Shown: in pieces, positions 2,868 to 40,707 of the stretch
Layout: the number at the start of each line of letters is the position of its first letter
Numbering within the stretch: position 1 is the stretch's first letter
From: Oscillospiraceae bacterium
GTDB lineage: Bacteria; Bacillota; Clostridia; Oscillospirales; Oscillospiraceae
Length of the DNA: 57,120 nt
NCBI GenBank assembly: GCA_017432615.1
Contig: JAFRIV010000032.1
Span: 1-57,120, forward strand
Direction of reading: 5' to 3'
Made by a program: the position numbers and the translations under genes
Notes under the pieces: generated by a model
Told to the model about the DNA's origin: nothing
The model's input: only the letters and a program-made list of their open reading frames with translations
Database searches by the model: none

Positions 2868-3361
2868 AGCTGGAAGCTGTTGTTGCCGTTTATGAGGACT
2901 GGGGGATCGGAGACGGGCGCACGCAGCCGGTCACGCTGAAAGCAGACAGGGCACATTTCCGGGCCCTTACACAAGGGGCGGCGGTAATCGTCGGCAGAAA
3001 GACGATGGAGGACTTCCCCGGCGGGAAGCCTCTGCAAGGAAGGCACAACATTGTGGTGACGGGGCAGAACACGGAGATCCCCGGAGCCGAGGTCGTGCAC
3101 AGTGCGGAAGAAGCCCTGGCGTGTGTGAAGGCGGACGAGAAATGCCTGGTGATCGGCGGAGCCAGTATTTATGAACTGTTCTTTCCGGAGATCGAGGGCG
3201 TTTATGTGACGAAAATAGGCTGCTGCCCGGCCAGCAAAAGATTTTTCCCGAATCTCGATGAAGATCCGGCATGGCAGTGCGTGGAAGCTGGGCCGTGTGA
3301 GGAAGAAGAGGGGATCCCCTACCGGTTCCTCACGTATCGGCGCCATAATGTAAAGGAGTGA
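2864..3361 (+). CDS. folA: Dihydrofolate reductase
   Basis: Reduces dihydrofolate to tetrahydrofolate with NADPH, closing the cycle opened by ThyA. The protein has 165 residues, the usual length for a bacterial DHFR. The WGIG loop is at residues 13-16. The catalytic acidic residue is Asp28 in KADRAHFRALT, aligned with E. coli Asp27. GRKTME and IGGASIYELF supply the NADPH-binding segments. The start overlaps the thyA stop by 4 bases. A membrane protein gene follows after 6 bases and probably shares the transcript. Confidence 0.95.
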   Translation: MKLEAVVAVYEDWGIGDGRTQPVTLKADRAHFRALTQGAAVIVGRKTMEDFPGGKPLQGRHNIVVTGQNTEIPGAEVVHSAEEALACVKADEKCLVIGGASIYELFFPEIEGVYVTKIGCCPASKRFFPNLDEDPAWQCVEAGPCEEEEGIPYRFLTYRRHNVKE

Positions 3362-3367
3362 TGTTTT

Positions 3368-4213
3368 ATGGGTAAAGACAGCAAATCTCTGGAAGTAAGC
3401 TGCTACGTCCTCGGTGCGGGGGCGTTCGGCGTGTTTTTCCGCTGGATGCAGCTCCAGCTGGCATATGACAAAGGGCTGCCCGACAAGAGCGTCTGGCACT
3501 TCTTCGTCGTGCTGCTGGTTTGTGCGGGAGCAGGCGTTTTTCAGTATTTTACCCGGAAGCAGGCAAAGGAGAAGCTGGCTGTTCCGGAAGATTTTTTCGA
3601 GGCGCTGCAGAATGAAGGAAAGCTCTATGCGGTGATCCGCTGGGCGATCGCTCTGGTAATGATCGCGGGCGGAGTGCTGCTGTTTTCCCAGAGTGAAGTG
3701 GATGCGGATGCAACATTCCTTCGGGTACTTGCCGTTCTGGGAATTCTGACGGGGATCGCTTTTCCGCTTACGCTGGTATGTGCCAACAAGCCGCATGTGG
3801 TGAAAAATTCGACGATCACCCTGCTGGCTCTGATCCCCATCCTGTTTTTCGCCTGCGGATTGCTGACGGCTTATAAACAGAATTCCATTAACCCGATCAT
3901 GTGGAACTACCTGATCGAGATCCTGACGCTGATCGTAGATGCCGTGGCATTCTTCCGCCTGGCCGGATTTGCCTATGGGGTGCCGGACGGGAAAAAGACG
4001 ATGTTCTATTGTATGTGGGGCGCCATGCTGAGCCTGATGACGCTTGCGGACAGCCGTTATCTCGGACAGCAGATCATGTTCTTTGCGGTTGCCCTGATGC
4101 TTACGCTGGCAAACTGGATCCTGATCGCCAACCTGCAGAAGCGGGAGATCGCGGAAGACGCTGCGGATCAGGAAGAGACGAAAAAAGAAGCGGAGCCTGT
4201 GGAAAGGCTTTGA
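3368..4213 (+). CDS. Polytopic membrane protein of unknown function
   Basis: A 281-residue protein with about seven or eight hydrophobic segments (for example residues 12-30, 40-58, 78-96, 108-128, 136-156, 160-185 and 205-260). It ends in a charged cytoplasmic-looking tail rich in E, D and K. Its ATG has AAGGAGTG 9 bases upstream. It sits 6 bases after folA and is closed by a terminator, so it is the last gene of the thymidylate operon. I recognise no enzymatic or transport signature. The link to folate metabolism is positional only. Confidence 0.75.
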   Translation: MGKDSKSLEVSCYVLGAGAFGVFFRWMQLQLAYDKGLPDKSVWHFFVVLLVCAGAGVFQYFTRKQAKEKLAVPEDFFEALQNEGKLYAVIRWAIALVMIAGGVLLFSQSEVDADATFLRVLAVLGILTGIAFPLTLVCANKPHVVKNSTITLLALIPILFFACGLLTAYKQNSINPIMWNYLIEILTLIVDAVAFFRLAGFAYGVPDGKKTMFYCMWGAMLSLMTLADSRYLGQQIMFFAVALMLTLANWILIANLQKREIAEDAADQEETKKEAEPVERL

Positions 4214-4243
4214 GAGAAAAAACGGAAAATCGGCGGGATCATG

Positions 4244-4274
4244 CGCTGCAGAAGGGATTTCTGCAGCGTTTTTT
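4244..4274 (+). terminator. Intrinsic terminator after the thyA-folA-membrane protein operon
   Basis: CGCTGCAGAA, loop GGGAT, TTCTGCAGCG, then TTTTTT. Confidence 0.85.
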
Positions 4275-4307
4275 ATGAAAAAAACATGAACAATTTCCGG
4301 GAGTCTG

Positions 4308-4336
4308 TTGCAAAAGGGTGACAGGTGATGTATAGT
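4308..4336 (+). promoter_or_regulatory. Promoter of the LysM-repeat gene
   Basis: TTGCAA, 17-base spacer, TATAGT, about 55 bases before the GTG start. Confidence 0.65.
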
Positions 4337-4391
4337 AGGCTCATTAAAAAACAGTAAGAGACAGCTGCCGCAGGAGAGGAGGAAGAAAAGA

Positions 4392-5372
4392 GTGAAGAAG
4401 AGTGTTTTGCAGGTATTGTTCCTGCTGTGCCTGATGATCCCGCTTTTTTCCGCAAACGCCCGGGCTGCCAAGGACTATACGCCCTATATCGTTGAAATAG
4501 AGGTCGGGCAAGGGGATACCATCAGTGATATCTGCGACGGTTACAGCATTGATTACTATGCGGTCAAACAAGCGATCCTGGTGGTAAACGGCATGGGCAG
4601 CGAGGACGCGCTGAACGCCGTGCGCCCGGGGCAGAAGCTGTACATCCCGAAGTCAAGAGCGGATGCCGATTCCATCATGGCTCTTTATGAAGCGACGATC
4701 TCGGCGGTGATCCCGGAGAGTTATGTGATCCGGTATACCGTAGAAAAAGGAGATACGCTCTACAGTATCTGCGACGGCCTTCAGCTGGATTACAACACCT
4801 GCAAAGAGGCGATCAAAAGCCTGAACCTGTGGTCGGGGGAGTTTCGTCTCAACGCGATCTATGCCGGGCAGGAGATTCTTCTGCCGGTGACAAATGAAGC
4901 CGCGAAAGAAATCACCGAGACGGTTGCCAAGGCGGTCGATGCCAATGTGAATGTGAGCACCGTGACGGGAGACCGGTTCGAGTATTATCTGATCGCACAC
5001 ACCATGCAGTCGGGAGAAACGGTGCGCGGAGTGTGTGATACCCTGGGGATCAAATACTCCAATGACGTTGAGCAGCTGCTGAAGACCATCAACGGGCTGA
5101 CCGCTCTCGGCAGCGTGCAGGCAGGGAAGGATTATCTGTTCCCTGCGAGAACGGCGAATAATGCGGTCTATGCCGTGTATTCCCACACGGTTGCAACAGG
5201 AGACACGACCGGAAGCCTATGCACTGCATACGACGTGAAATACGAAAACGTGAAAGCGGTCCTTCAGGGGCTGAATCCGAAGATCACCCTGACCGCTATC
5301 CCGAAGGGGGCAACGATGATGCTGGTCGCCCCGTGCGGAACCGGGGCAGAAACCCCTCTGATCATCAAATAA
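4392..5372 (+). CDS. Secreted protein with four LysM-like repeats
   Basis: A 326-residue protein starting at GTG behind a GGAGAGGAGG site. Residues 1-26 form a signal peptide ending in NARA. Four LysM-like units follow, beginning near residues 34, 116, 202 and 262. Each has a GDT or GET turn, an aromatic/valine strand before it, and a PGQKLYIP- or AGQEILLP-like end. LysM modules bind glycan chains of peptidoglycan. No hydrolase domain is attached, so this is a binding protein or an orphan wall-anchoring factor. Unusually, every unit has a cysteine in the position normally filled by a small residue (SDIC, YSIC, RGVC, GSLC), and the units are longer than the usual 44 or so residues. Its own promoter lies upstream. 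Confidence 0.8.
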   Translation: MKKSVLQVLFLLCLMIPLFSANARAAKDYTPYIVEIEVGQGDTISDICDGYSIDYYAVKQAILVVNGMGSEDALNAVRPGQKLYIPKSRADADSIMALYEATISAVIPESYVIRYTVEKGDTLYSICDGLQLDYNTCKEAIKSLNLWSGEFRLNAIYAGQEILLPVTNEAAKEITETVAKAVDANVNVSTVTGDRFEYYLIAHTMQSGETVRGVCDTLGIKYSNDVEQLLKTINGLTALGSVQAGKDYLFPARTANNAVYAVYSHTVATGDTTGSLCTAYDVKYENVKAVLQGLNPKITLTAIPKGATMMLVAPCGTGAETPLIIK

Positions 5373-5538: not shown

Positions 5539-6513
5539 ATGAGTTTTGCCGTTATGACAGATACTTCAGCGAATCTTCCAACCACGATGCTGCAGGAAAA
5601 AGAGATCGGTGTGATTGCCTTTCCCTATATGATCGGCGGGGAAACATTTCATTGCACGGATACGGACGCCTTCCCTGCGGATGAGTTTTATACTTCCATC
5701 AAAAAAGGCGCGGTCGTAACCACATCACAGATCGCCCCCCGGGATTATATGGACTTCTTTGAACCGTGCCTGAAGCAGGGAAAAGATATTCTCTTTGTGG
5801 CGATGTCTTCCGGTATTTCCGGCTCCTGCGGATCGGCGCATATCGCGGCAGGGGAACTTTCGGAAGACTATCCCGAGAGGAAGATCGAGATCGTGGATGC
5901 TCTCGGGGCCTCTCTCGGGGAAGGCCTGCTTGCCCTGCAGGCGGCGGAACTGAGAGATCAGGATCTGTCGGTAGAAGATGCCGCGGCACGCCTGAGGGAA
6001 GCGGTCGAGCGGATGTTCAATGTCTTTACGGTAGATGATCTGATGCATCTGAAACGCGGAGGGCGGCTTTCCAACCTGTCGGCGGTGATCGGCACGGTGC
6101 TGCAGATCAAGCCCATTCTGAAAGGGAATGAGGAAGGCAAGATCGTCGCATTTGCCAAGGTGCGGGGCAGAAAACAGTCGATCCTCACCCTGGCAGAGAT
6201 GTATGACAAACTTGTAAAGGACCCCGAAAAGCAGACGGTAGGCATTGCGCAGGCATTGTGCCGGGAAGACGCGGAGATGCTTGCCTCCCTGCTGCAGAAA
6301 AACAGACCGCCCAGGCAGATCCTGACCGTGGAGTATGAACCGGTAACAGGATCTCATGTGGGCCCCGGCGCGCTGGCGCTGTTCTTTGAAAGCGAAGCGG
6401 GCGTTCGGACTTATGACGGCAGGAGCGTGATAAGCGCAGTCAGGGAAGCTGTCAGCAAAGTGGGAGAAAGGCTGCCGCATCCGAAGCTGCCTCATTCCAG
6501 AGCGGGAAAATGA
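5539..6513 (+). CDS. DegV family fatty-acid-binding protein (FakB-like)
   Basis: DegV proteins bind a fatty acid and, where studied (FakB of Staphylococcus aureus), present it to the kinase FakA for phosphorylation. The 324 residues show the family pattern: the N-terminal TDTSANL block, the TSQ loop near residue 60 that contacts the carboxylate, SSGISGS near 92, DDLMHLKRGGRLS in the middle and HVGPGALALFF near the end. AAGGAGG lies 9 bases before the ATG. A DAK2-domain protein of the FakA type is encoded 10 kb downstream (15952-17649), and PlsY at 49.5 kb could use the acyl-phosphate. Which fatty acid it binds cannot be read from sequence. Confidence 0.88.
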   Translation: MSFAVMTDTSANLPTTMLQEKEIGVIAFPYMIGGETFHCTDTDAFPADEFYTSIKKGAVVTTSQIAPRDYMDFFEPCLKQGKDILFVAMSSGISGSCGSAHIAAGELSEDYPERKIEIVDALGASLGEGLLALQAAELRDQDLSVEDAAARLREAVERMFNVFTVDDLMHLKRGGRLSNLSAVIGTVLQIKPILKGNEEGKIVAFAKVRGRKQSILTLAEMYDKLVKDPEKQTVGIAQALCREDAEMLASLLQKNRPPRQILTVEYEPVTGSHVGPGALALFFESEAGVRTYDGRSVISAVREAVSKVGERLPHPKLPHSRAGK

Positions 6514-7621: not shown

Positions 7622-8340
7622 AGCAGCTGCTCCAGTATCAGAAGGGCCCGGATAGAGATCCAGTTGACCAGCATATGGAAAAAGATGCTGCACCAGATGG
7701 AGTCGGTGCGTTCATAACAGCGGCATAAAAGCCAGGCTGCGGGGAGATACTGCAGGAGATAGATCCAGTAGGTGGCGTCATAGAGGGCAAACCCCCATAC
7801 GTGATACAGAGAGAAGAGCAGTATGGTAAGCAGGTATGCCGCCAAACGGTTCCTGCGCCGAAGGGTACCGAAGAGGAGGCCGCGAAACAGCACTTCTTCG
7901 GTAAGCGGTGCAAGGAAAACGGCCATGGCCGTAATGGGGCCGGAGTCCTGCATCGCCAGGGAGATGATCGAGGCGTTGTTCTGGTTGGAAACCGTTCCGT
8001 CCAGGAAAAGACCGGACAGCAGAGACAGGAGGCCGGAAGCGATCAGGTTGAACGCCATCATGGTGCAGTAGGAAAGCGCAATTTCCGCAAAGCATCTCAG
8101 AGGATGGTCACAGAGCGGGTCAAAATCGCGGCGGAGAAAGGGAAAACAGGTGACCGCGAGAAAAAGAGCACCGAGACCGTAGAGCAGCAGATTTGCCTGA
8201 AGCTCGCTGATCACGCCGCGTTCCATCAGCGAAACAGCCAGGCGGGGCAGGAGCCAGAGATGCATCGGCATCCACAAAAGAGCGCAGACAGCCTCGCGCC
8301 TGTCCATCCGGCTGGTGAAAGAGATCGGATCCGTTCTCAC
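7618..8340 (-). CDS. CPBP family intramembrane metalloprotease (ABI family)
   Basis: A 240-residue membrane protein with about seven hydrophobic segments. It carries the three CPBP/Rce1-like motifs: EExxxR in PLTEEVLFRGLLF near residue 140, an FxxxH-type motif in LFSLYHVWG near 170, and HxxxN in FFHMLVNW near 220. The two His and the Glu pair are the expected active-site residues. Bacterial members are mostly of unknown substrate; some relate to bacteriocin immunity or protein sorting. It starts at GTG, overlapping the mutS stop by 4 bases (GTGA), and overlaps trmO by 4 bases at the other end, so the three genes are tightly coupled. Confidence 0.88.
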   Translation of the reverse strand: MRTDPISFTSRMDRREAVCALLWMPMHLWLLPRLAVSLMERGVISELQANLLLYGLGALFLAVTCFPFLRRDFDPLCDHPLRCFAEIALSYCTMMAFNLIASGLLSLLSGLFLDGTVSNQNNASIISLAMQDSGPITAMAVFLAPLTEEVLFRGLLFGTLRRRNRLAAYLLTILLFSLYHVWGFALYDATYWIYLLQYLPAAWLLCRCYERTDSIWCSIFFHMLVNWISIRALLILEQLL

Positions 8341-10937
8341 GCGCGGGCCTTCTTCTGCAGTTCGTAGAGCAGGCTGAGGGCTTCCAGCGGCGTAAGGGTG
8401 TTCAGGTCAGTCCCTTCCAGGATGCGGCGCACCTCATCGGTGCCGATGTCAGAGAAAGAGATCTGATCCGATTCCGCCCGGCCTTCCGGAAGAACAGCAG
8501 TGCCCTGGGTTTCAAATTCCTTCAGGTAGTTCTTCGCCTTGCTGACGATGGCGTCCGGCAGCCCGGCGAGCTTAGCCACTTCAATACCGTAACTGTCGTC
8601 TGCAGCACCGCGGATGATCTTGCGCAGGAAGACGAGCGTCCCGCCCTGCTTTTTTGCGGAGATGCTGTAATTGCGGACGCCGTCGATCTCGCCTTCCAGC
8701 GAGGAGAGTTCATGATAGTGTGTGGCAAACATGGTCTTGGCCCCGAGCTTCTTTCTGTCGGCACAGAATTCCAGAACGGCACGGGCGATGGCCATCCCGT
8801 CAAAAGTGGAAGTGCCCCGCCCGATCTCGTCGAGGATCAGGAGGGAAGAGGAGGTGGCATACTTCAGGATATTTGCCATCTCATTCATTTCCACCATAAA
8901 GGTGGAATGGCCGGAAGCCAGGTCGTCCGAGGCACCGATGCGGGTGAAAACGCGGTCTACGATGCCGATGACGGCACTTTTTGCCGGGACAAACGAACCC
9001 ATCTGCGCCATCAGAACGATCAGGGCGGTCTGCCGCATATAAGTGGATTTTCCCGCCATATTTGGCCCCGTGACAATGGCAACGCGGTCCTCGGAAACGT
9101 TGAGGAAGGTATCATTCGGCACAAAGAGCACCTCTTTCATCGTCTGCTCGACGACGGGATGGCGCCCCTCCGTAATGGAGATCGTGCCGGAGGTGTCGAT
9201 CTCAGGGCAGGTATAACGGTTGCGTACGGCCACTTCCGCCAGGGAGCAGAGAACATCCAGCCGTGCAACGGCATCGGAGGAAGCCTGGATGCGGCTGACT
9301 TCGGCGGCAACGCGGTCACGCAGAGAGGCAAAGAAGTTGTATTCCATTTCGTTGATCTTCTCACGGGAGGTGAGAAGGGTGTTTTCCAGCTCCTTCAGCT
9401 CCTGGGTGAAGTAGCGCTCATTGGAGACCAGCGTCTGCTTGCGGATATAGTCGGAGGGAATGCCGCCTTCTCCGGCGGAGCGCGGCACATCGATATAATA
9501 CCCGAAGACTTTGTTGTAGCCGACTTTGAGCTTTTTGATGCCGGTGCGCTCCCGTTCGCGTTCTTCCAGGTCCTTGACCATCTGTGCGCCGTTGTCACGG
9601 ATGGAGCGCAGACGATCCAATTCTTCGGAAAATCCTTCCCGGATCAGGCCGCCTTCCCGCACGGAGAAGGGAGGATCGTCGCAGATCGCGGCATCGATGC
9701 CTGCACGCAGATCTTCCAGAAGATCCATGGAGCGGATATCTTTCAGCTCCATGCAGGAAAAACTCTCCAGAATGGAGCGAATGGAAGGGAGAACGGCAGC
9801 ACAGTTGGCAAGCGTACGCAGATCCCGGCCGCCGGCCGTACCGTACACACACCGGCCGACCAGACGCTGCATATCACGGATGTTTTTCAGCTGATCGATC
9901 AGTTCTCCGCGGCGCACGTTGTCTTCCGCAAGCTCCGCCACGGCAGAAAGACGCCTGCGAATGGCTACGGCGGAAAGAAGCGGGCGCTCCACCCAGGAGC
10001 GAAGCAGGCGGGACCCCATCGGCGTCTTCGTGCGGTCAAGCACCCACAAAAGGGAACCGCGTTTTTCGCCGCTGCGCAGTGCTTCGGTCAGTTCCAGGCT
10101 TCGGCGCGTCGACCAGTCCATCTCCATATAGCGGCCGCCGTGGAATACATCCAGACGGTTGACATGGCTGAGGTCAAATTTTTGCGTTTCATCAATATAC
10201 TGCAGAAGCGAGCCGACGGCGCAAACGGCCTCGTCAGCGTCCTGCAGACCGGCAGCGGCCGCCGAGGAATACCCGAACTGGGCACACATCCTTTCCGTGC
10301 ACCCGGGTAGAGAAAACTTCTCTTCCCCCGTTTCGGGCATGGCACCGAGTTTTTCCGAGAGAAATTCCGTCACGGCCTCACAGGAGGCGGCTTCGCGGGA
10401 AAGCAATGCTTCGCAGGGAGTGAAACGGCCGAGTTCATTCAGAATATGATTGGGAGCATCATTTTCGAAAAAGGCACAGCACATTTCCCCGGTGGTGATA
10501 TCGCAGAACGCAACACCGCCTTTGCGGCCGGTCAGGCAAACGGAGCAGATATAGTTGCTGCGGTTTTCTTCCAGCATGGCAGTGTCTGTGACGGTGCCCG
10601 GCGTGATAATACGGATCACTTCCCGCTTGACGATCCCTTTTGCGAGGGCAGGGTCTTCCATCTGCTCGCAGATAGCCACCTTGTGGCCTTTCGCGATCAG
10701 TTTGGCAATATAAGATTCCGCAGCGTGATACGGCACGCCGCACATGGGGGTGCGTTCCTCCGGGTTTTCCACATTTCTGTCACGAGTGGTAAGCGCAATA
10801 TCCAGATCGCGGGAGGCGACATAGGCGTCCTCATAGAACATCTCATAAAAGTCACCGAGACGGAAGAACAGAAGACAGTCCTGATACTGTTCCTTGATCT
10901 CCAGATACTGGCGCTTCATCGGGGTCAGTTCAGCCAT
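8337..10937 (-). CDS. mutS: DNA mismatch repair protein MutS
   Basis: MutS recognises mispairs and small loops and starts mismatch repair. The 866-residue length fits MutS1. The mismatch-reading motif GDFYEMF is at residues 28-34. The connector, lever and clamp regions follow. The C-terminal ATPase has Walker A GPNMAGKST, Walker B LLILDEIGRGTSTFDG and the TMFATHYHEL block. The C-terminus keeps a short helix-turn-helix tail. A strong promoter lies directly upstream and shares its -35 region with the divergent MATE gene. No mutL is visible nearby. Confidence 0.97.
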   Translation of the reverse strand: MAELTPMKRQYLEIKEQYQDCLLFFRLGDFYEMFYEDAYVASRDLDIALTTRDRNVENPEERTPMCGVPYHAAESYIAKLIAKGHKVAICEQMEDPALAKGIVKREVIRIITPGTVTDTAMLEENRSNYICSVCLTGRKGGVAFCDITTGEMCCAFFENDAPNHILNELGRFTPCEALLSREAASCEAVTEFLSEKLGAMPETGEEKFSLPGCTERMCAQFGYSSAAAAGLQDADEAVCAVGSLLQYIDETQKFDLSHVNRLDVFHGGRYMEMDWSTRRSLELTEALRSGEKRGSLLWVLDRTKTPMGSRLLRSWVERPLLSAVAIRRRLSAVAELAEDNVRRGELIDQLKNIRDMQRLVGRCVYGTAGGRDLRTLANCAAVLPSIRSILESFSCMELKDIRSMDLLEDLRAGIDAAICDDPPFSVREGGLIREGFSEELDRLRSIRDNGAQMVKDLEERERERTGIKKLKVGYNKVFGYYIDVPRSAGEGGIPSDYIRKQTLVSNERYFTQELKELENTLLTSREKINEMEYNFFASLRDRVAAEVSRIQASSDAVARLDVLCSLAEVAVRNRYTCPEIDTSGTISITEGRHPVVEQTMKEVLFVPNDTFLNVSEDRVAIVTGPNMAGKSTYMRQTALIVLMAQMGSFVPAKSAVIGIVDRVFTRIGASDDLASGHSTFMVEMNEMANILKYATSSSLLILDEIGRGTSTFDGMAIARAVLEFCADRKKLGAKTMFATHYHELSSLEGEIDGVRNYSISAKKQGGTLVFLRKIIRGAADDSYGIEVAKLAGLPDAIVSKAKNYLKEFETQGTAVLPEGRAESDQISFSDIGTDEVRRILEGTDLNTLTPLEALSLLYELQKKARA

Positions 10938-10972
10938 ATGATCTCACTTTCCGGCAGAAAAAATTTTTTCTT

Positions 10973-11023
10973 ATTATACGCTAAAAAACTCATATTGACA
11001 ACCGAAAACGACAGTGATATCTT
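10973..11023. promoter_or_regulatory. Overlapping divergent promoters of mutS (-) and the MATE gene (+)
   Basis: Minus strand: TTGTCA (11001-10996), 17 bases, TATAAT (10978-10973). Plus strand: TTGACA (10995-11000), 17 bases, TATCTT (11018-11023). The two -35 boxes occupy the same seven bases, so the two promoters cannot be bound at the same time. Confidence 0.7.
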
Positions 11024-11073
11024 GTCATGCGCGTTGAAAAACTTGTGGAAAGCAGGGGCAGGCAGGAATAAAA

Positions 11074-12513
11074 ATGAACGGAACATTTGCCGAGACAGGA
11101 ACCGGCCGTCAAAAGCTGAAGGAACGGATCGCGCATCTTTTTCACCGGGACCATAAAGGACTTCCCAAAAAGGATCTGACAACGGGCGTCGTCTGGAAAC
11201 GCCTGCTGGTGTTTTTCCTGCCGATCGCTGCCGGGACCTGCATCCAGCAGCTTTATAATGCGGTTGACGGGATGATCGTAGGCCGGTTCGTAGGAACAAG
11301 AGCGCTGGCCGCCGTCGGAGGAAGCTCTGCCCAGATCATCAATTTGCTGATCGGGTTTTTTGTCGCCATCACTTCGGGGGCTTCCGTTGTGATCGCCCAG
11401 GTCTACGGCGCCGGGCGGGAGAAGGACGTACAGAATGCCGCCGGGAATGCCATCACGGTTTTTGCCCTGATGGGGGTCGTTCTGATGGGATTCGGGCTGG
11501 CGGCTTCTCCCGGCATGCTTTCTCTGCTGAAAACGCCTGCCGATACCCTGGCGGATGCAGTGCTGTACCTGCGGATCTACTTTATCGGGGTGCCGTTTGT
11601 GCTGGTGCTGAATATGGAATCCAACATGCTGCGCGCGGTGGGCGATTCTCTGAGCCCCTTCCTTTTCATGGTGGCCGGATGCCTCACCAATATTGTGCTG
11701 GATGTGGTGTTTGTGGTAGTTTGCCGCTGGGGGATCGCCGGGGTAGCCATAGCGACGGTTTTGTCGCAGGTGCTGAATATGGCGCTTCTGACCGGAAAGC
11801 TGCTGACCGCCAAAGAGGCATACCGCCTCAGCTTCCGTCAGCTGAGGCTGAAGGGAATGTATCTCGTCAATATGATGCGGCTCGGTGTGCCTTCGGGGCT
11901 TCAAAGCTCGATGTATGCCGTTTCCAACATGATCATCCAGGTTGGGGTAAATACGCTGGGGACGGTCGTCGTCGCCTCCTGGGCCATGACGTCCAAAACA
12001 GACGGGATCTACTGGGCCGTCAGCAATGCGATGGGCGCGGCGATCACCAGCTTCGTCGGGCAGAATCTCGGCGCCGGAAAAACGGACCGGGTGAAGACGT
12101 GTGTCAGGCAGGGGATGCTCATGGCGCTGGGCATTACCGTGGGACTGAGCACCCTGATCATGCTCTGCGCAAAGCCGCTGCTGCATATTCTCACCAACGA
12201 TCCCGCCGTAATTGACACGACCTATGAGATGATGACCTATTTCGTTCCCTTCTATTTCACCTGGACGGCCATTGAAGTGCTCTCCGGTGTTCTGCGCGGA
12301 GCCGGCGATGCGATCCGGCCGGTGATCATTATCGGGATAGGGATATGCCTGTTCCGGATCATCTGGATCCTGACAGTATTTGCCGCATTCAGAAGCCTGC
12401 CGGCGCTTTGCCTGTGCTACACGGCCTCCTGGACGGTTACTAGTGCGGTGATGATCCTGTACTTCCGAAAAGGGAGCTGGCTGAAAAGGCACAGCATGGT
12501 GATGACGAAATAA
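11074..12513 (+). CDS. MATE family multidrug/metabolite exporter
   Basis: A 479-residue protein with about 12 hydrophobic segments in two similar halves, as in MATE cation-coupled exporters. The first helix region reads LPIAAGTCIQQLYNAVDGMI, followed by VGRFVGTRALAAVGGS, the characteristic first-half block. The second half repeats it as VPSGLQSSMYAVSNMI. The N-terminal 45 residues are hydrophilic and longer than usual. The ATG has GGCAGGAAT as a ribosome binding site. It stands alone, divergent from mutS. Its substrate cannot be inferred. Confidence 0.9.
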   Translation: MNGTFAETGTGRQKLKERIAHLFHRDHKGLPKKDLTTGVVWKRLLVFFLPIAAGTCIQQLYNAVDGMIVGRFVGTRALAAVGGSSAQIINLLIGFFVAITSGASVVIAQVYGAGREKDVQNAAGNAITVFALMGVVLMGFGLAASPGMLSLLKTPADTLADAVLYLRIYFIGVPFVLVLNMESNMLRAVGDSLSPFLFMVAGCLTNIVLDVVFVVVCRWGIAGVAIATVLSQVLNMALLTGKLLTAKEAYRLSFRQLRLKGMYLVNMMRLGVPSGLQSSMYAVSNMIIQVGVNTLGTVVVASWAMTSKTDGIYWAVSNAMGAAITSFVGQNLGAGKTDRVKTCVRQGMLMALGITVGLSTLIMLCAKPLLHILTNDPAVIDTTYEMMTYFVPFYFTWTAIEVLSGVLRGAGDAIRPVIIIGIGICLFRIIWILTVFAAFRSLPALCLCYTASWTVTSAVMILYFRKGSWLKRHSMVMTK

Positions 12514-34599: not shown

Positions 34600-34664
34600 A
34601 TCTGTCAGCATAAGAAAAATACCGGTATACCGGAAATGCAATGATGAAAAGAAAGGAAAACAGT

Positions 34665-35177
34665 ATGGAATTTAAAGAAGTCCTGACAGCCAGATATTCA
34701 TGTAAAAAGTATTCAGACCGTCCGGTGGAGAAGGAGAAGCTGGAAGCGATCCTGAATGCCGGCCGGCTGGCCCCCACAGCGAAGAACCTGCAGGAACAGC
34801 GTGTGTATGTGGTGCAGAGTCCCGAGCTGTTGGCAAAGATCGATGCCGTTACCCCCTGCCGTTACGGCGCATCCACGGTGCTCGTGGTGGCGTTTGATGC
34901 GAATAACGTCTTCACCTATCCGGGAGGAAAGCGTGATTCCGGTGTGGAGGATGCAACGATCGTCGCAACGCACATGATCCTTGCTGCGGCAGATGAAGGC
35001 GTAGACAGCTGCTGGATCAACTTCCTCGATCCGCAGAAGCTGGCGGAGGCACTCGGTCTCCCGGAGAATGAAGAAGTTCTGATGGTTATGGATCTGGGCT
35101 ATGCCGCAGAAGGCGCCGGGCCGCTGCCGAACCACACAAACAGGAAAGATCTGTCAGAGACCGTTTGTTATCTCTGA
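34665..35177 (+). CDS. Nitroreductase family FMN enzyme
   Basis: A 170-residue NAD(P)H-dependent FMN oxidoreductase. It opens with a block reading F-K-E-V-L-T-ARYSCKKYSDRPV, the FMN-phosphate Arg/Ser motif, and LNAGRLAPTAKNLQEQRVYVV follows as in all nitroreductases. EDATIVATHMILAAADEGVDSCWI and LPNHTNRKDLSE are the later conserved segments. The short length is typical of the minimal subgroup. I start at 34665 behind AAAGGAAAAC; an in-frame ATG eight codons upstream lacks a site. It is monocistronic. Confidence 0.88.
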   Translation: MEFKEVLTARYSCKKYSDRPVEKEKLEAILNAGRLAPTAKNLQEQRVYVVQSPELLAKIDAVTPCRYGASTVLVVAFDANNVFTYPGGKRDSGVEDATIVATHMILAAADEGVDSCWINFLDPQKLAEALGLPENEEVLMVMDLGYAAEGAGPLPNHTNRKDLSETVCYL

Positions 35178-35340: not shown

Positions 35341-38300
35341 CTACGGCTGCGGCGAAGGAGGAACGACCTGAACATCATTACCCGGCCAGAACGGTGTAAG
35401 AACGGAAATGGCTGTAATCCGAAGATTTTCCTCCGTAGGTTCATTTCCAACACGGGAAAAAGCAATCAGATGATCCAGACAGGTATTGCCGAAGACGCAG
35501 GAACCATATTCAGAGGGTTCCGCGTTGGCGATACGCTCCCGGAAACGGAATGTGTCGGTGAAGAGTTCGTTCATGAAGTAGCCGTCCCTGGCCATTTGCA
35601 TATATTCTTCACGATCATGAATCACAAAGCTATAATTGTCAGTAAAGAACTGAAGCGGGAAAGAAATCCTGTCCGCCAGCGCTTCCCAGTCATCACCGAC
35701 AATAGCCTTCTGAACGGCAGCGGTAAATTTTGCACCTGCCGGAAAAGCATCCTCAAAAAGACGTACAGGTTCATTGGCAAAGGGATTTTCCAAATCATTC
35801 ACTCCACCGTGGAATTCAGATTTTTCTCTGGAAGCGCCATCCTCATACATGGGTGCAGAAAGAGTCCCGTCCGCGTTTACATCATACATTCCGTTGAGGC
35901 CAGAGAGGGGCTCGCCGTTCCATGTCTTGTCGCCGCATTCGGTGAAAAGGAAGGCGGGAGAGGGCACATCGTGCACATCGCAGTCTGTAAAGCTGATCCC
36001 GTCGGTCTGGAAGAATTGGCCCGCGCCTTGCGAGCACTCATAGATCTCGGTACGAAGGACGGACAAGCCGGAGCAGTACGACGCCTGAATGCCGAGAATG
36101 CCGCAGCCGTACAGGCGCATTTTCTCGATCATGACCTGATCACAGTTCTGGAAATACAGCACTCCGCCGGAGCAGGCGCCCGGTTCCTTCGTATGCCCCG
36201 CGGTGAAGCCTCCGAGGAAGAGATTGCTGCAGTTTTGGAAGCTGAGCACATTGGCAAAGCGCGGGATCGCAGCGAGAGTCGTAGCTCCGGAAGCGGTATT
36301 GCCCGCGCGGATCGACAGGCCGCTTACATCGTGAATAACAAGAGCCGGGCCGTCCGGGCTTTCCTGCCAGTAGTAATACGCCGTGCCGATTCCGCCGTAA
36401 TTGGATGCTGAGGAAAGATCAAAGAGGTCACCGTCGAGGATGACGGTGCGATCGGGGCCCAGACAGGCGAGAAGTTCATCTACGGTCTTGACCGTAACCT
36501 CACCGCCGACAGGGACATCCGTCGTCTGAGCGTGATCAGCGGGCTTAGGGTTGACACTCTCCGGCGGGATATCACGCAGCATCATTTCTGCCAGCTGTGC
36601 GCCTTCAATAAGAGCATTGCCGTTTGTATCGGCAGCATAGATGCCGCTCCCGGCATACCAGCCGTGGCTTACGTCGTTGCCCTCAAAACGGCAGCCGTCC
36701 ACTGTTGCCCCGTACTGCCGGAAAGTGAAAACCTTGGCAGCGAAGACGTTGCTCAGCACTTCATTGGAGAGGAAGAGCACATTTTTCGTAAAGCTGCTGT
36801 TCAGCAGATACTGGGCCCGGTTGTCATGGATATGGCAGTTATAGACTGTGAAACCCTCGCCGTAGCTTATGCTGAAGAGGTTCATGGCCTCACCCTGGCC
36901 TTCGCGTGTTCCGTGATGATGAATCTCACAGCCGCTGACAACCACGTCCCGACATTGGTGAACCTCTACTGCACCGTAGCTGCATTCGTAGAGGTTTGAA
37001 TTCGTGACCGAGAGCTGAGAGCAGCTCTGCGCACGGACGCCGATCGTGCCGCAGCCATAGAGGCTGCAGGTATCAATGCTGACATTCGTACAGTCTTCCA
37101 GACACAAAACGCCGCCTGCGCAAAGGCCGGGTTCCATCGTATGCCCCGCGGTGAGATTTGAGACCGTCAGATTCCGGCAGTTGACGAAGTTGATCACGTT
37201 GGCATAGCGCGGCACGGCAGCGATGGTAGTCTCTTCTAGCCCTGCGCCGCGGAGTGTGAGACCGTCGACGTTATGAATGACCAACTCTGCAGCCACCTCG
37301 TCATTGCTGTAGACACCGTTCCAGGAGTAATAAGAGCTGTGGGTATCTGCCCCGTAATTTGCAGCTGTACTGAGATCGTATAGGCCTTCGGTAAGCTCAA
37401 TGACCGCGTTCGGAGCGATGGCGGCCAGCAACTCGTCCACGTTCGTAACACGGATAGCGTCACCATCCGTCTGGACGGCAGACAATTCGACTGCTGAAGC
37501 GGCAGGTCCGGCGGCCATCCCGCAGCCTGCCAGAAGCACAAGAGCCAGCACTGCGGCCAGCATCCGTGCTCCGCTCTTCTTATAATTCATGATCTGAATC
37601 AGTCTTTCTTTCAAATTGCGCTTCTCGGTGGCAAACGTTGTGGCAACTACCCCTGCGGGAAGCGGCGAAGCTGCCGCCATGGACAACAGCGTATTGCCAT
37701 AGGCCTGCTTCTCACCTCGCGTCATGGATCGCAGCAGCATCTCGTCACAGCTCAGTTCGCAGGCGCGATTCAGCTCTTTCCGAATGATCCGGCTGAGAGG
37801 ATTGAACCAGTGCGCCGAGAGGACCGCAACGGCAACCCATTTGTAAAGTGTGTCACAGCGCCGATAATGCATAAGCTCATGGCGGAGAATATTGAGCAGA
37901 AGTTCTTCGTCATACTCTCGCTCCGGCAGGATGATCTTTGGGGAAAACACGCCGAACATCAAAGGTGTTCTTATCGCACCAGAGCGGAAGAGAGCTGGCT
38001 TGTGCCCGGGGATAGAGGCATAGAGTTCACGGGTGAAGCGGTCAGGTCTGTGAAGTTCATGCCGCAGACGAATGGTGAAGCGCACATAAGCAAGCACAGT
38101 CAGCCCCAGACTCATCACAGTCCCAAGCCCCCAGACAGAAAGCCAGAGCCATTGTGAGTGCCAGTCCACAGAACGGGCAGTGTTTCGGGCAGGCACCATG
38201 GTGTGCACCTCGGATATTCCTGCTGCCTGAAGGGAGGGCTGAGATTTGGGTGCGTCAGTTGTCGTGCTCTGCGGAAGAACTGGGTCCTGTTCCTTATGAT

Positions 38301-38520
38301 CCCGTATGGTGGTTCCGCTGTAAACAGGTGTTTCGGCAGCTTCCGTCTCGAATGTGGTCGGAATCAGCCCCGGAAGAGGCAAAGTGAAACGCAGCAGCAC
38401 CAGAAGCCAGGCATAGTAATAAACCGTACTCGGCATCCGGCGCAGTGCGACATAACGCAGGCCCAGAAGAAGCAGCGCAACGATACTGCCGCTGAGGGTC
38501 ATTACCAACAGCGTTTTCAT
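35341..38520 (-). CDS. BlaR1-like M56 metalloprotease fused to two beta-helix modules
   Basis: A 1059-residue membrane protein. Residues 1-55 hold two membrane helices and 120-150 a third. The M56 zinc protease motif HELMH is at 214-218, with NRACELSCDE near 251-260 providing the downstream Glu ligand. A further helix ends in LAGCG near 331. Then come two homologous modules, about 355-640 and 675-890. Each starts VDELLA, has LYDLSTAANYG or LFDLSSASNYG, and continues as short Asn/Cys-rich turns (NCRNLTVSNLTAGH, NCSNLFLGGFTAGH) typical of right-handed parallel beta-helix proteins. The last 120 residues resemble a SnoaL/NTF2-like fold. BlaR1 relatives cleave the BlaI repressor, encoded 3 bases upstream. 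A penicillin-binding sensor domain is absent. Confidence 0.88.
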   Translation of the reverse strand: MKTLLVMTLSGSIVALLLLGLRYVALRRMPSTVYYYAWLLVLLRFTLPLPGLIPTTFETEAAETPVYSGTTIRDHKEQDPVLPQSTTTDAPKSQPSLQAAGISEVHTMVPARNTARSVDWHSQWLWLSVWGLGTVMSLGLTVLAYVRFTIRLRHELHRPDRFTRELYASIPGHKPALFRSGAIRTPLMFGVFSPKIILPEREYDEELLLNILRHELMHYRRCDTLYKWVAVAVLSAHWFNPLSRIIRKELNRACELSCDEMLLRSMTRGEKQAYGNTLLSMAAASPLPAGVVATTFATEKRNLKERLIQIMNYKKSGARMLAAVLALVLLAGCGMAAGPAASAVELSAVQTDGDAIRVTNVDELLAAIAPNAVIELTEGLYDLSTAANYGADTHSSYYSWNGVYSNDEVAAELVIHNVDGLTLRGAGLEETTIAAVPRYANVINFVNCRNLTVSNLTAGHTMEPGLCAGGVLCLEDCTNVSIDTCSLYGCGTIGVRAQSCSQLSVTNSNLYECSYGAVEVHQCRDVVVSGCEIHHHGTREGQGEAMNLFSISYGEGFTVYNCHIHDNRAQYLLNSSFTKNVLFLSNEVLSNVFAAKVFTFRQYGATVDGCRFEGNDVSHGWYAGSGIYAADTNGNALIEGAQLAEMMLRDIPPESVNPKPADHAQTTDVPVGGEVTVKTVDELLACLGPDRTVILDGDLFDLSSASNYGGIGTAYYYWQESPDGPALVIHDVSGLSIRAGNTASGATTLAAIPRFANVLSFQNCSNLFLGGFTAGHTKEPGACSGGVLYFQNCDQVMIEKMRLYGCGILGIQASYCSGLSVLRTEIYECSQGAGQFFQTDGISFTDCDVHDVPSPAFLFTECGDKTWNGEPLSGLNGMYDVNADGTLSAPMYEDGASREKSEFHGGVNDLENPFANEPVRLFEDAFPAGAKFTAAVQKAIVGDDWEALADRISFPLQFFTDNYSFVIHDREEYMQMARDGYFMNELFTDTFRFRERIANAEPSEYGSCVFGNTCLDHLIAFSRVGNEPTEENLRITAISVLTPFWPGNDVQVVPPSPQP

Positions 38521-38523
38521 CCT

Positions 38524-38901
38524 TTATTCCTCCACCCTGAACATCTGCTGCAATTCATCCAGATCCTCCTGCGTGAGACCATCCGAATTGACGAGAGCGG
38601 CGATCAGTTCCCGTGCGCTGCCGTTATAAAGGCGGGTGATCAGATCTTTTGTAGCCCAGGTACCGTATTCATTTTCCGAGATGATCGGAGAATAGAAATA
38701 AACATTTCGCTTTTCCTGCCGGACAACGCCTTTTGCAACAAGCCGGGAAATCAGCGTCTTGATCGTCGCAGGCTCCCAGCCTTTAGCCTGCTGCAGCTTT
38801 TCGCGAATCTCCGTAACGGGCAGAGCATCCTCTGCATGCCACAGGAGCTTCATGATTTCCAGTTCAGAACCGGTTATTTTGCAGGCAAGATTATCGGACA
38901 T
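38524..38901 (-). CDS. blaI: BlaI/MecI family repressor
   Basis: A 125-residue winged-helix repressor. SELEIMKLLWHAEDALPVTEIREKL, WEPATIKTLISRLVAKGVV and the wing EKRNVYFYSPIISENEY are classical for the family. The C-terminal helices (about 80-120) form the dimer and contain the region cut by the partner protease. AGGAGGATATAG precedes the ATG. Two TACA-N2-TGTA-like dyads overlap and follow its promoter, so it is probably autoregulated together with the M56 gene behind it. Confidence 0.92.
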   Translation of the reverse strand: MSDNLACKITGSELEIMKLLWHAEDALPVTEIREKLQQAKGWEPATIKTLISRLVAKGVVRQEKRNVYFYSPIISENEYGTWATKDLITRLYNGSARELIAALVNSDGLTQEDLDELQQMFRVEE

Positions 38902-38925
38902 AACTATATCCTCCTGAGAATAGTT

Positions 38926-38978
38926 TACATTTGTAGCTCGAGCGCCCTCAATATAACATGGGAGGCTACAATTGTCAA
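38926..38978 (-). promoter_or_regulatory. Promoter and two BlaI-type operators of blaI-M56
   Basis: Minus strand TTGACA (38978-38973), 17-base spacer, TATATT (38955-38950). Two dyads of the BlaI box type lie here: TACAATTGTC (38967-38976 on plus), overlapping the -35, and TACATTTGTA (38926-38935), downstream of the transcription start. Their centres are 41 bases apart. Confidence 0.75.
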
Positions 38979-39345: not shown

Positions 39346-40707
39346 ATGAACCGCGAGAGCAGAAATAACAGGATCCTGTTTGAGGAAATGCCTCCGCTGA
39401 AGGCACTTTCCACCATGGCGATTCCGATGGTGATCTCTCAGCTGATCATCCTGATCTATAACATGGCGGACACGTTTTTCCTCGGGAAAACGAATAACCC
39501 GTATATGGTAGCCGGAGCGTCATTGATCCTGCCTGTTTTTAATGTTTCCATTGCGTTTGCCAACATCGCGGGGACGGGCGGAGGGACGCTGATTGCCCGT
39601 CTGCTCGGGAAGGAGAGGACAGAGGACGCGCGGCGGGTGGCCGCTTTCAGCTTCTGGTTTTCCATACTGGCGGGGCTTGTGTTCTCTCTTGCCACCCTGT
39701 TTCTGATGCATCCGCTGCTGACGGCGCTCGGGGCCAGTACGGAGACATTTTCCTATGCACGGCAGTATGTGACCTGTGTGATCGTCATCGGCGCGGTACC
39801 GACGATCCTTTCCATGACACTGGGAAATCTTCTTCGCAATACCGGCAACGCAGCACAGGCGGGGTTCGGGGTCTCCATGGGCGGAATGCTGAATATGCTG
39901 CTGGATCCGCTTTTTATGTTTGTTCTTCTCCCCAGAGGCAAGGAGATCCTCGGTGCGGGTATGGCTACCGCACTTTCCAACGTTGTGGTATGCATCTATT
40001 TTCTGTATACTGTGCATCACCTCCGGAATCCGGTACTGAATTTTACCCCGAAAGATGCTTTGCCGGAGAGAGAGGAGATCGCCTCCTTCTTTGCGGTGGG
40101 AGTACCCGCCGCCATCGGCCCCTTCCTTTTCGATCTGGATTATGTTGTGATCGACCGGCTGATGTCCTCCTACAGCGATATTGCACTGGCGGCAATGGGG
40201 ATCGTGCTCAAGGCGGAAAGGCTGCCGCTGAACATCGGTATCGGCCTGTGTCTGGGCATGGTGCCGCTGGCGGCTTACAACTACTCCTCGGGAAATCTGA
40301 AGCGGATGGAAGAGTTTTTGAAGCTGACCCGGCGCATTGGCACATTGGTGTGCATAGTCAGTATTGCTCTGTATGAGTTTTTTGCACCGATGCTGATGCG
40401 CCTGATGATCGGGGAAGAGCAGACCATTGCTCTTGGCTCCCGCTTTCTCCGTATTCGTGCCCTGGCAACCATCGTGATGTTTCTGAGTTTCAGCTATGTG
40501 CACTTTTTCCAGGCTGTCGGACAGGGGAAATATGCCTTTTTCCTCGCGGTCATGCGCTGGGGGATGGTCAATATCCCGATGCTCTTTCTGCTCAATGCAC
40601 TCTTTGGAATGTACGGGATCGTCTGGTCACAGCTCGTGAGCGATATTATTGTTGCTTCCGTTTCCTGGATCACCTATCGCCATTTTCGGAAAAGGCAGAT
40701 TATATAG
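39346..40707 (+). CDS. MATE family exporter (second copy)
   Basis: A 453-residue, 12-helix MATE protein. The opening LKALSTMAIPMVISQLIILI and NMADTFFLGKTNNPYMVAGAS are typical of the DinF/NorM-like branch. GTGGGTLIARLLGKERTEDAR and GNLLRNTGNAAQAGFGVSMGG follow. It differs strongly from the MATE at 11074, so the two are not recent duplicates. AAAAAGGAGAGG precedes the ATG. It is preceded by a transcribed leader with a terminator, suggesting control by premature termination. Substrate unknown. Confidence 0.9.
   Translation: MNRESRNNRILFEEMPPLKALSTMAIPMVISQLIILIYNMADTFFLGKTNNPYMVAGASLILPVFNVSIAFANIAGTGGGTLIARLLGKERTEDARRVAAFSFWFSILAGLVFSLATLFLMHPLLTALGASTETFSYARQYVTCVIVIGAVPTILSMTLGNLLRNTGNAAQAGFGVSMGGMLNMLLDPLFMFVLLPRGKEILGAGMATALSNVVVCIYFLYTVHHLRNPVLNFTPKDALPEREEIASFFAVGVPAAIGPFLFDLDYVVIDRLMSSYSDIALAAMGIVLKAERLPLNIGIGLCLGMVPLAAYNYSSGNLKRMEEFLKLTRRIGTLVCIVSIALYEFFAPMLMRLMIGEEQTIALGSRFLRIRALATIVMFLSFSYVHFFQAVGQGKYAFFLAVMRWGMVNIPMLFLLNALFGMYGIVWSQLVSDIIVASVSWITYRHFRKRQII

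Follow-up and report, generated by a model that had tools for sequence, protein, structure and literature searches.

The 57,120-nucleotide contig JAFRIV010000032.1 of an Oscillospiraceae bacterium (assembly GCA_017432615.1; the whole stretch is called the window, and its genome, G000, is 87% complete in 50 contigs) contains a two-gene operon in which a BlaI-type repressor is paired with an M56 membrane protease fused to a duplicated beta-helix. The core reading, a BlaI/M56 system with a non-penicillin sensor, is supported. Its fuller form is an autoregulated operon for a receptor protease whose penicillin sensor has given way to a double beta-helix, facing outward, that would sense a polysaccharide or a wall or surface glycan fragment; this form is given an even chance of being right. 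The glycan ligand itself, taken from the fold by analogy, is a reasonable guess. The genes and the parts of the protease half are as follows.

38524..38901, minus strand: blaI-type repressor gene, an open reading frame (ORF) of 125 amino acids (Penicillinase_R 1.4e-29 over residues 9-120; MecI/BlaI structures 1okr and 1sd4)
35341..38520, minus strand: M56 protease/double beta-helix fusion gene, an ORF of 1059 amino acids (Pfam domains; whole-length relatives L001 and L002)
37591..38514, minus strand: M56 membrane protease domain, residues 3-310 (PF05569, 1.4e-40; aligned to BlaR1 structure 8exp)
37867..37881, minus strand: HELMH zinc motif, residues 214-218 (alignment to 8exp)
37633..37638, minus strand: Thr295-Phe296, opposite the BlaR1 self-cleavage bond Ser283-Phe284 (alignment to 8exp)

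Both ORFs, one for a BlaI-type repressor and one for an M56 membrane protein with HELMH at residues 214-218, were found as described in an earlier note on this DNA. They lie 3 base pairs (bp) apart on the minus strand, and the pair seems to stand alone as an operon, since the nearest genes on either side (a likely gene at 34641-35177 downstream and a MATE-like gene at 39346-40707 upstream, both named by eye) are on the other strand. The repressor scores 103.2 bits against the Pfam model Penicillinase_R (curated cut-off 22.6), and the 1059-residue protein scores 139.8 bits against Peptidase_M56 over residues 3-310 (cut-off 31). Staphylococcus aureus BlaR1 (8exp) aligns with window residues 4-311. 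In this alignment BlaR1 H201, H205, E242, D246 and R294 correspond to window H214, H218, E255, D259 and R306, and the HExxH motif of peptidase M56 is present together with its Glu and Asp; E242 has a known role in BlaR1. The roles of H201, H205, D246 and R294 and the self-cleavage site Ser283-Phe284 are given in the available part of PMC9834060. The NCBIfam model blaR1_generic reached 94.5 against a cut-off of 400, with the match confined to residues 8-333. Four hydrophobic segments were identified by hydropathy, with Lys and Arg richer on the presumed cytoplasmic sides, matching the BlaR1 layout. The C-terminal beta-helix part is thereby predicted to lie outside the cell, after the fourth transmembrane segment (TM4), and not in the cytoplasm.

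36916..37455, minus strand: beta-helix module 1, residues 356-535 (self-comparison and profile; strands of the model run on to about residue 613)
35968..36498, minus strand: beta-helix module 2, residues 675-851 (homology to module 1)
35344..35865, minus strand: C-terminal tail, residues 886-1059 (no Pfam family at E <= 0.01; 63% identity to L001, 48% to L002)

The Pfam profile Beta_helix scores 69.9 bits in the 1059-residue protein (cut-off 25.9). Module 1 was re-modelled alone after a weak full-length model, and residues 350-668 were modelled as a beta-helix. For module 1 the model predicts a right-handed beta-helix, close in fold to polysaccharide lyases and epimerases, and the curated profile and the matching fold agree on a right-handed parallel beta-helix. 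No penicillin-binding sensor was found after TM4 by Pfam (E <= 1) or by sequence against solved structures, and penicillin sensing of the BlaR1 type was rejected on these grounds. The region received only general beta-helix or below-cut-off names from Pfam and NCBIfam. The proposal that a beta-helix stands in place of the penicillin-binding domain is thus upheld by profile, and fold prediction also gave a right-handed beta-helix, not a penicillin-binding fold. The further claim of two homologous modules was confirmed: the duplication is real (82/181 identities, 45%, E 9e-54), and by profile boundaries the units span about 180 residues each, module 1 being followed by further strands in the model. 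A SnoaL/NTF2-like identity of the tail had also been suggested and was not confirmed, with no Pfam family at E <= 0.01, only unrelated matches at E <= 10 (one at 0.024 for the window tail; two at 0.05-0.07 for that of L001) and a model with a predicted local distance difference test score (pLDDT) below 50. The tail of L035, on contig C31 of G000, looks unrelated: the window tail has no BLAST match there at E <= 1e-4, and Pfam names none.

The bacterium has relatives in animal guts. Whole-length relatives of the fusion, both from a scan of species genomes, are L001 (72% identity, yak duodenum) and L002 (65%). Scans of 300 genomes from the same family and of 391 from the class added more fused loci; the family scan scored at most two candidates per genome, the matches fetched are part of all, and the counts are lower bounds. 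Eleven fused loci were read: the window, L001, L002, L035, L036, L037, L039, L045, L046, L050 and L152. L035 is the second copy in G000, and the M56 and BlaI genes detected in that genome, two of each kind, are paired with each other; L046 is cut by a contig end, L050 is divergent, and L064 is the same operon as L152. Module homologues beside other blaI genes, which the earlier note had proposed looking for, occur as fused operons in several genomes, and a gene-calling artefact was ruled out, the fusion being a single open frame in several genomes. The module was found in 30 of the 391 class genomes (G000 included) and in 1 of 299 genomes drawn from the phylum, that one being G000 itself. Among 29 class loci read (L064-L092), one is fused to M56 (L064), and the rest look like exported proteins or partial frames. 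A search for viral relatives of the beta-helix pair gave 28 stretches that fitted the pattern, none of which encoded a relative.

The region identities do not point to a fast-evolving sensor. Beta-helix and protease identities to the window are, respectively, 83 and 59% for L001, 69 and 64% for L002, 64 and 56% for L037, 56 and 64% for L036, 49 and 54% for L039, and 46 and 49% for the paralogue. The inner duplication had been read as selection acting on the sensor. However, module 1 is 82% and module 2 is 87% identical to its L001 counterpart, the two modules share only 45% identity, and doubling is also seen in stand-alone proteins; the duplication is therefore no sign of recent sensor selection. 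In a tree of 52 modules most forks inside the two-module family are left open, so that the tree does not decide which of the fused and stand-alone forms came first, L041 excepted.

A standard promoter with paired operators precedes blaI.

38973..38978, minus strand: -35 box TTGACA of the blaI promoter (read from the sequence)
38950..38955, minus strand: -10 box TATATT, 17-bp spacer (read from the sequence)
38967..38976, unstranded: operator dyad 1, TACAATTGTC / GACAATTGTA, one mismatch, overlapping the -35 box
38926..38935, unstranded: operator dyad 2, TACATTTGTA / TACAAATGTA, exact, downstream of the -10 box and 41 bp from dyad 1

The two BlaI-type operators described earlier are thus present as predicted sites, one exact and one with a single mismatch; the dyads are halves of a 16-nucleotide inverted repeat (88%). 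Single dyads with one mismatch occur in the window at chance level (9 observed, 6.86 expected). The spaced pair is not at chance level: among the 10 genomes searched, 7 have it, with 13 matches falling on 12 places, and the reversed control gave none; six of these places are blaI promoters of M56/beta-helix operons. An exact pair is present at 8 of the 11 fused loci, with a spacing of 39-41 bp. In G000 the pair pattern was found at both blaI promoters and at a gene presumed, by eye, to be of DUF134 type. From the pair-pattern matches in G000 and the other genomes, there is good support for autoregulation of the blaI/M56 operon and no convincing target besides it. The places outside blaI promoters comprise the DUF134-type gene, where the half-sites differ, in three genomes, plus single places in G084, G174 and G292. 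At L200, L201 and L203, in three genomes including G000, a TTGACATATGT pair stands at the start of what we take to be this DUF134-type gene, and at L202 (G174 contig C22, 2542-2593) a BlaI-like dyad pair, spaced as at blaI promoters, is close to a gene that by eye is Lon-like.

G000 has 10 exact TACANNTGTA sites, whereas the reversed control matches 26 times, and two of the 10 are at the two blaI promoters. At L057 and L060 a single such site lies within about 60 bp before the likely start of an adhE-like gene and an ABC substrate-binding gene, respectively (named by eye), an arrangement not repeated beside the 15 relatives' sites read. These 15, from 31 in three genomes, showed as kin of the G000-site genes only the blaI operons and a weak 25% match to a permease fragment. 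Operators before wall or glycan genes, which the earlier note had named as possible support, were not found in G000 with the exact dyad or the pair pattern. The MATE gene (39346-40707, plus strand) was set aside as a target, having no exact dyad and no pair near its start.

The mechanism that these features suggest is as follows. BlaI bound to the two dyads bracketing the promoter would hold down expression of the operon. Outside the cell the beta-helix pair would bind a ligand, in all likelihood a polysaccharide or a wall or surface glycan fragment, and movement through TM4 would reach the cytoplasmic zinc protease. The protease would then clip BlaI near Ala102-Leu103 and so release the operon. 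Several points weigh against this reading. The full-length model is poor, with a mean pLDDT of 42.4, and the geometry between the domains is therefore not defined. A shared fold shows no function, and the ligand class is drawn from the fold by analogy. Half of the pair-pattern places (6 of 12) are not blaI promoters of the M56/beta-helix kind, L045, L046 and L050 (3 of the 11 fused loci) are without an exact dyad pair, and neither exact-dyad matches nor pair-pattern matches gave a convincing target outside the own operon. Production of the outer domain may itself be what the operon is for. Finally, the repressor had been called a canonical BlaI, which is right for its Penicillinase_R domain but not for its cut site: by alignment to solved structures, staphylococcal Asn101-Phe102 falls on Ala102-Leu103 of the window repressor. 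Nine of the 11 fused loci have Ala-Leu at this bond, L152 has Ser-Leu and L046 has Ala-Phe, whereas Asn101-Phe102, the BlaR1 cut site in staphylococcal BlaI, is called almost invariant in the available part of PMC9834060.

That the outer domain is a product, and not only a sensor, was considered from the sequence of TM4.

37507..37563, minus strand: TM4, residues 320-338, with a lipobox-like LLAGC (hydropathy 2.28)
37522-37524, minus strand: Cys333 of LLAGC, at the end of TM4

On this alternative, which is unlikely, TM4 would be a lipoprotein signal, lipoprotein signal peptidase would cut before Cys333, and the beta-helix pair would become a surface lipoprotein whose production is under the control of the same operon. 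TM4 does end in LLAGC, and lipobox cores in TM4 exceed the expectation from shuffled TM4 in three M56 sets: the fused proteins (6 of 11; 1.4 expected), other proteins of the same family (33 of 80; 10.5 expected) and the draw from the phylum (5 of 30; 0.7 expected). A stricter rule that requires a preceding Lys or Arg leaves 6, 28 and 5; if instead the Cys must lie in the final third of TM4 or immediately behind it, 6, 31 and 5 remain. These 121 M56 proteins remained after 3 of 124 frames without TM4 or zinc motif were dropped; the same-family set is the top of a similarity ranking, not a random draw, and its shared ancestry makes the shuffle a weak control. M56 proteins without the beta-helix (L015-L034, L093-L151, L153-L182) carry a lipobox-like motif in TM4 in 38 of 110 cases, against about 11 expected from shuffling. 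L041, which has the protease end, TM4 with LLSGC and the beta-helices and no protease domain, looks like a fusion that lost its protease, and in L050 the M56 fusion is followed by a separate beta-helix lipoprotein-like gene. That the own operon is the only convincing target also fits a product. In S. aureus, signal peptidase I cuts the BlaR1 linker after Gly331, just behind TM4 (PMC9834060, available part), and by analogy the internal lipobox could be a local version of this cut. Against this, 5 of the 11 fused proteins have no lipobox, including the close relative L002 (LLALC) and the G000 paralogue (LLFSC); the motif is therefore not essential, and cleavage cannot be so everywhere.

Within the modules, Gly459, His460, Cys467, Gly489 and Gly491 are invariant in 51 sequences (36 from the family set and 15 distant; the divergent row of the L050 fusion was dropped), and Cys490 and Cys513 are present in 98%. 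The 23-residue spacing of Cys467, Cys490 and Cys513 suggests that the three sit on neighbouring coils. Such conservation would suit a module that senses metal or redox state through its His and Cys, with the beta-helix as a mere scaffold. The repressor scores equally on the CopY model and the best BlaI model (81.4 each, each under its own cut-off), and the window operators fit what we take to be the CopY box. However, cysteine stacks also serve as core packing in beta-helices, no copper gene was recognised by eye among the window ORFs, and the end of the repressor (P0002) is without the C-terminal cysteine motif of CopY; metal or redox sensing is thus considered quite improbable. A similarly low probability is assigned to a combined proposal, in which TM4, the last membrane helix of BlaR1-like proteases, became an internal lipoprotein signal in Clostridia. 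The receptor would then mature into a membrane protease and a lipid-anchored beta-helix pair with a His/Cys3 site, and this lipoprotein would close the circuit by acting both as the sensor and as its sole regulated product.

Neighbours of the fused operons differ among loci, and no partner pathway stands out. In L039 (G264) a D-Ala-D-Ala dipeptidase gene (Peptidase_M15, 5.4e-26) lies tail to tail with the blaI/M56 operon. Together with the kinship to BlaR1/BlaI, this neighbour could speak for a retained response to cell-wall antibiotics, through products of wall damage rather than the drug. It was seen only at L039 among the loci read (neighbours mostly named by eye), and no beta-lactamase or penicillin-binding gene was recognised by eye among the window ORFs, so that a retained antibiotic response is judged very unlikely. 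Upstream of the L039 operon, on the same strand, are an extracytoplasmic function (ECF) sigma factor gene and a membrane-protein-like gene; these neighbours and the dipeptidase gene are covered by L039 positions 10062-11518 and 5580-6380. In L036 the M56 fusion is followed, on its own strand, by a UDP-glycosyltransferase-domain ORF (3296-4975, minus strand; UDPGT 9e-17), which opens 22 bp from the fusion and has its likely start codon about 300 bp away. In L043 a stand-alone two-module beta-helix ORF (7703-11086) begins 3 bp after a LytR-CpsA-Psr ORF.

Returning to the BlaI/M56 operon with a double beta-helix sensor, the window switch probably senses something other than an antibiotic, since its outer part is a beta-helix pair resembling sugar enzymes. 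The BlaR1/BlaI switch is known mainly as a trigger of antibiotic resistance; here the same core is joined to a beta-helix family that is conserved and has no name, which suggests a broad class of one-step receptor proteases with penicillin sensing as a single branch. In the titles and abstract openings searched, subscription papers being mostly outside, no report was found of an M56/BlaI beta-helix fusion or of a lipobox in BlaR1. Three features lend themselves to direct tests: the promoter, which is self-contained, the conserved pattern of His and Cys, and the lipobox inside the protein.

How does this operon compare with known systems? Like staphylococcal BlaR1/BlaI and MecR1/MecI, it pairs a repressor with a membrane M56 zinc protease, and the zinc site, the Asp/Arg pair and the self-cleavage loop align. 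The staphylococcal operators are TACA-N2-TGTA-type dyads, as are those of the window. Unlike BlaR1 and MecR1, the window protein carries a double beta-helix and a tail instead of a penicillin-binding sensor, and its repressor has Ala-Leu where staphylococcal BlaI has Asn-Phe. The CopY/TcrY copper repressors are profile relatives of the window repressor and presumably share its TACA-N2-TGTA box, but on TIGR02698 (CopY/TcrY, NCBIfam) it scores 81.4, below the cut-off of 121.95. In Clostridium thermocellum, the BlaI_0696 and BlaI_1845 operons contain BlaI and BlaR1-type genes and have small regulons centred on their own operon (PMC8457756, available part); their sites, for four ordered protomers, resemble the window arrangement, whereas the half-sites GTCTAT/GACTAT differ. 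Alginate lyase (6kfn) and AlgE4 (2pyg) share the right-handed beta-helix at 9-18% identity among the 50 matches listed, a likeness of fold only. Other M56 proteins are alike in the protease half and likewise non-penicillin in the outer half, with the module absent at E <= 1e-3. The outer domains of 107 such module-free proteins include M23 peptidase (9), DUF4825 (5) and leucine-rich, BNR and other domains (few each) by Pfam; the first member scanned had no Pfam family, and no penicillin-binding domain was found among 25 of the 30 families in the set. From this mixture, sensor exchange looks common in the M56 family, with the window system as one clear and conserved case of it.

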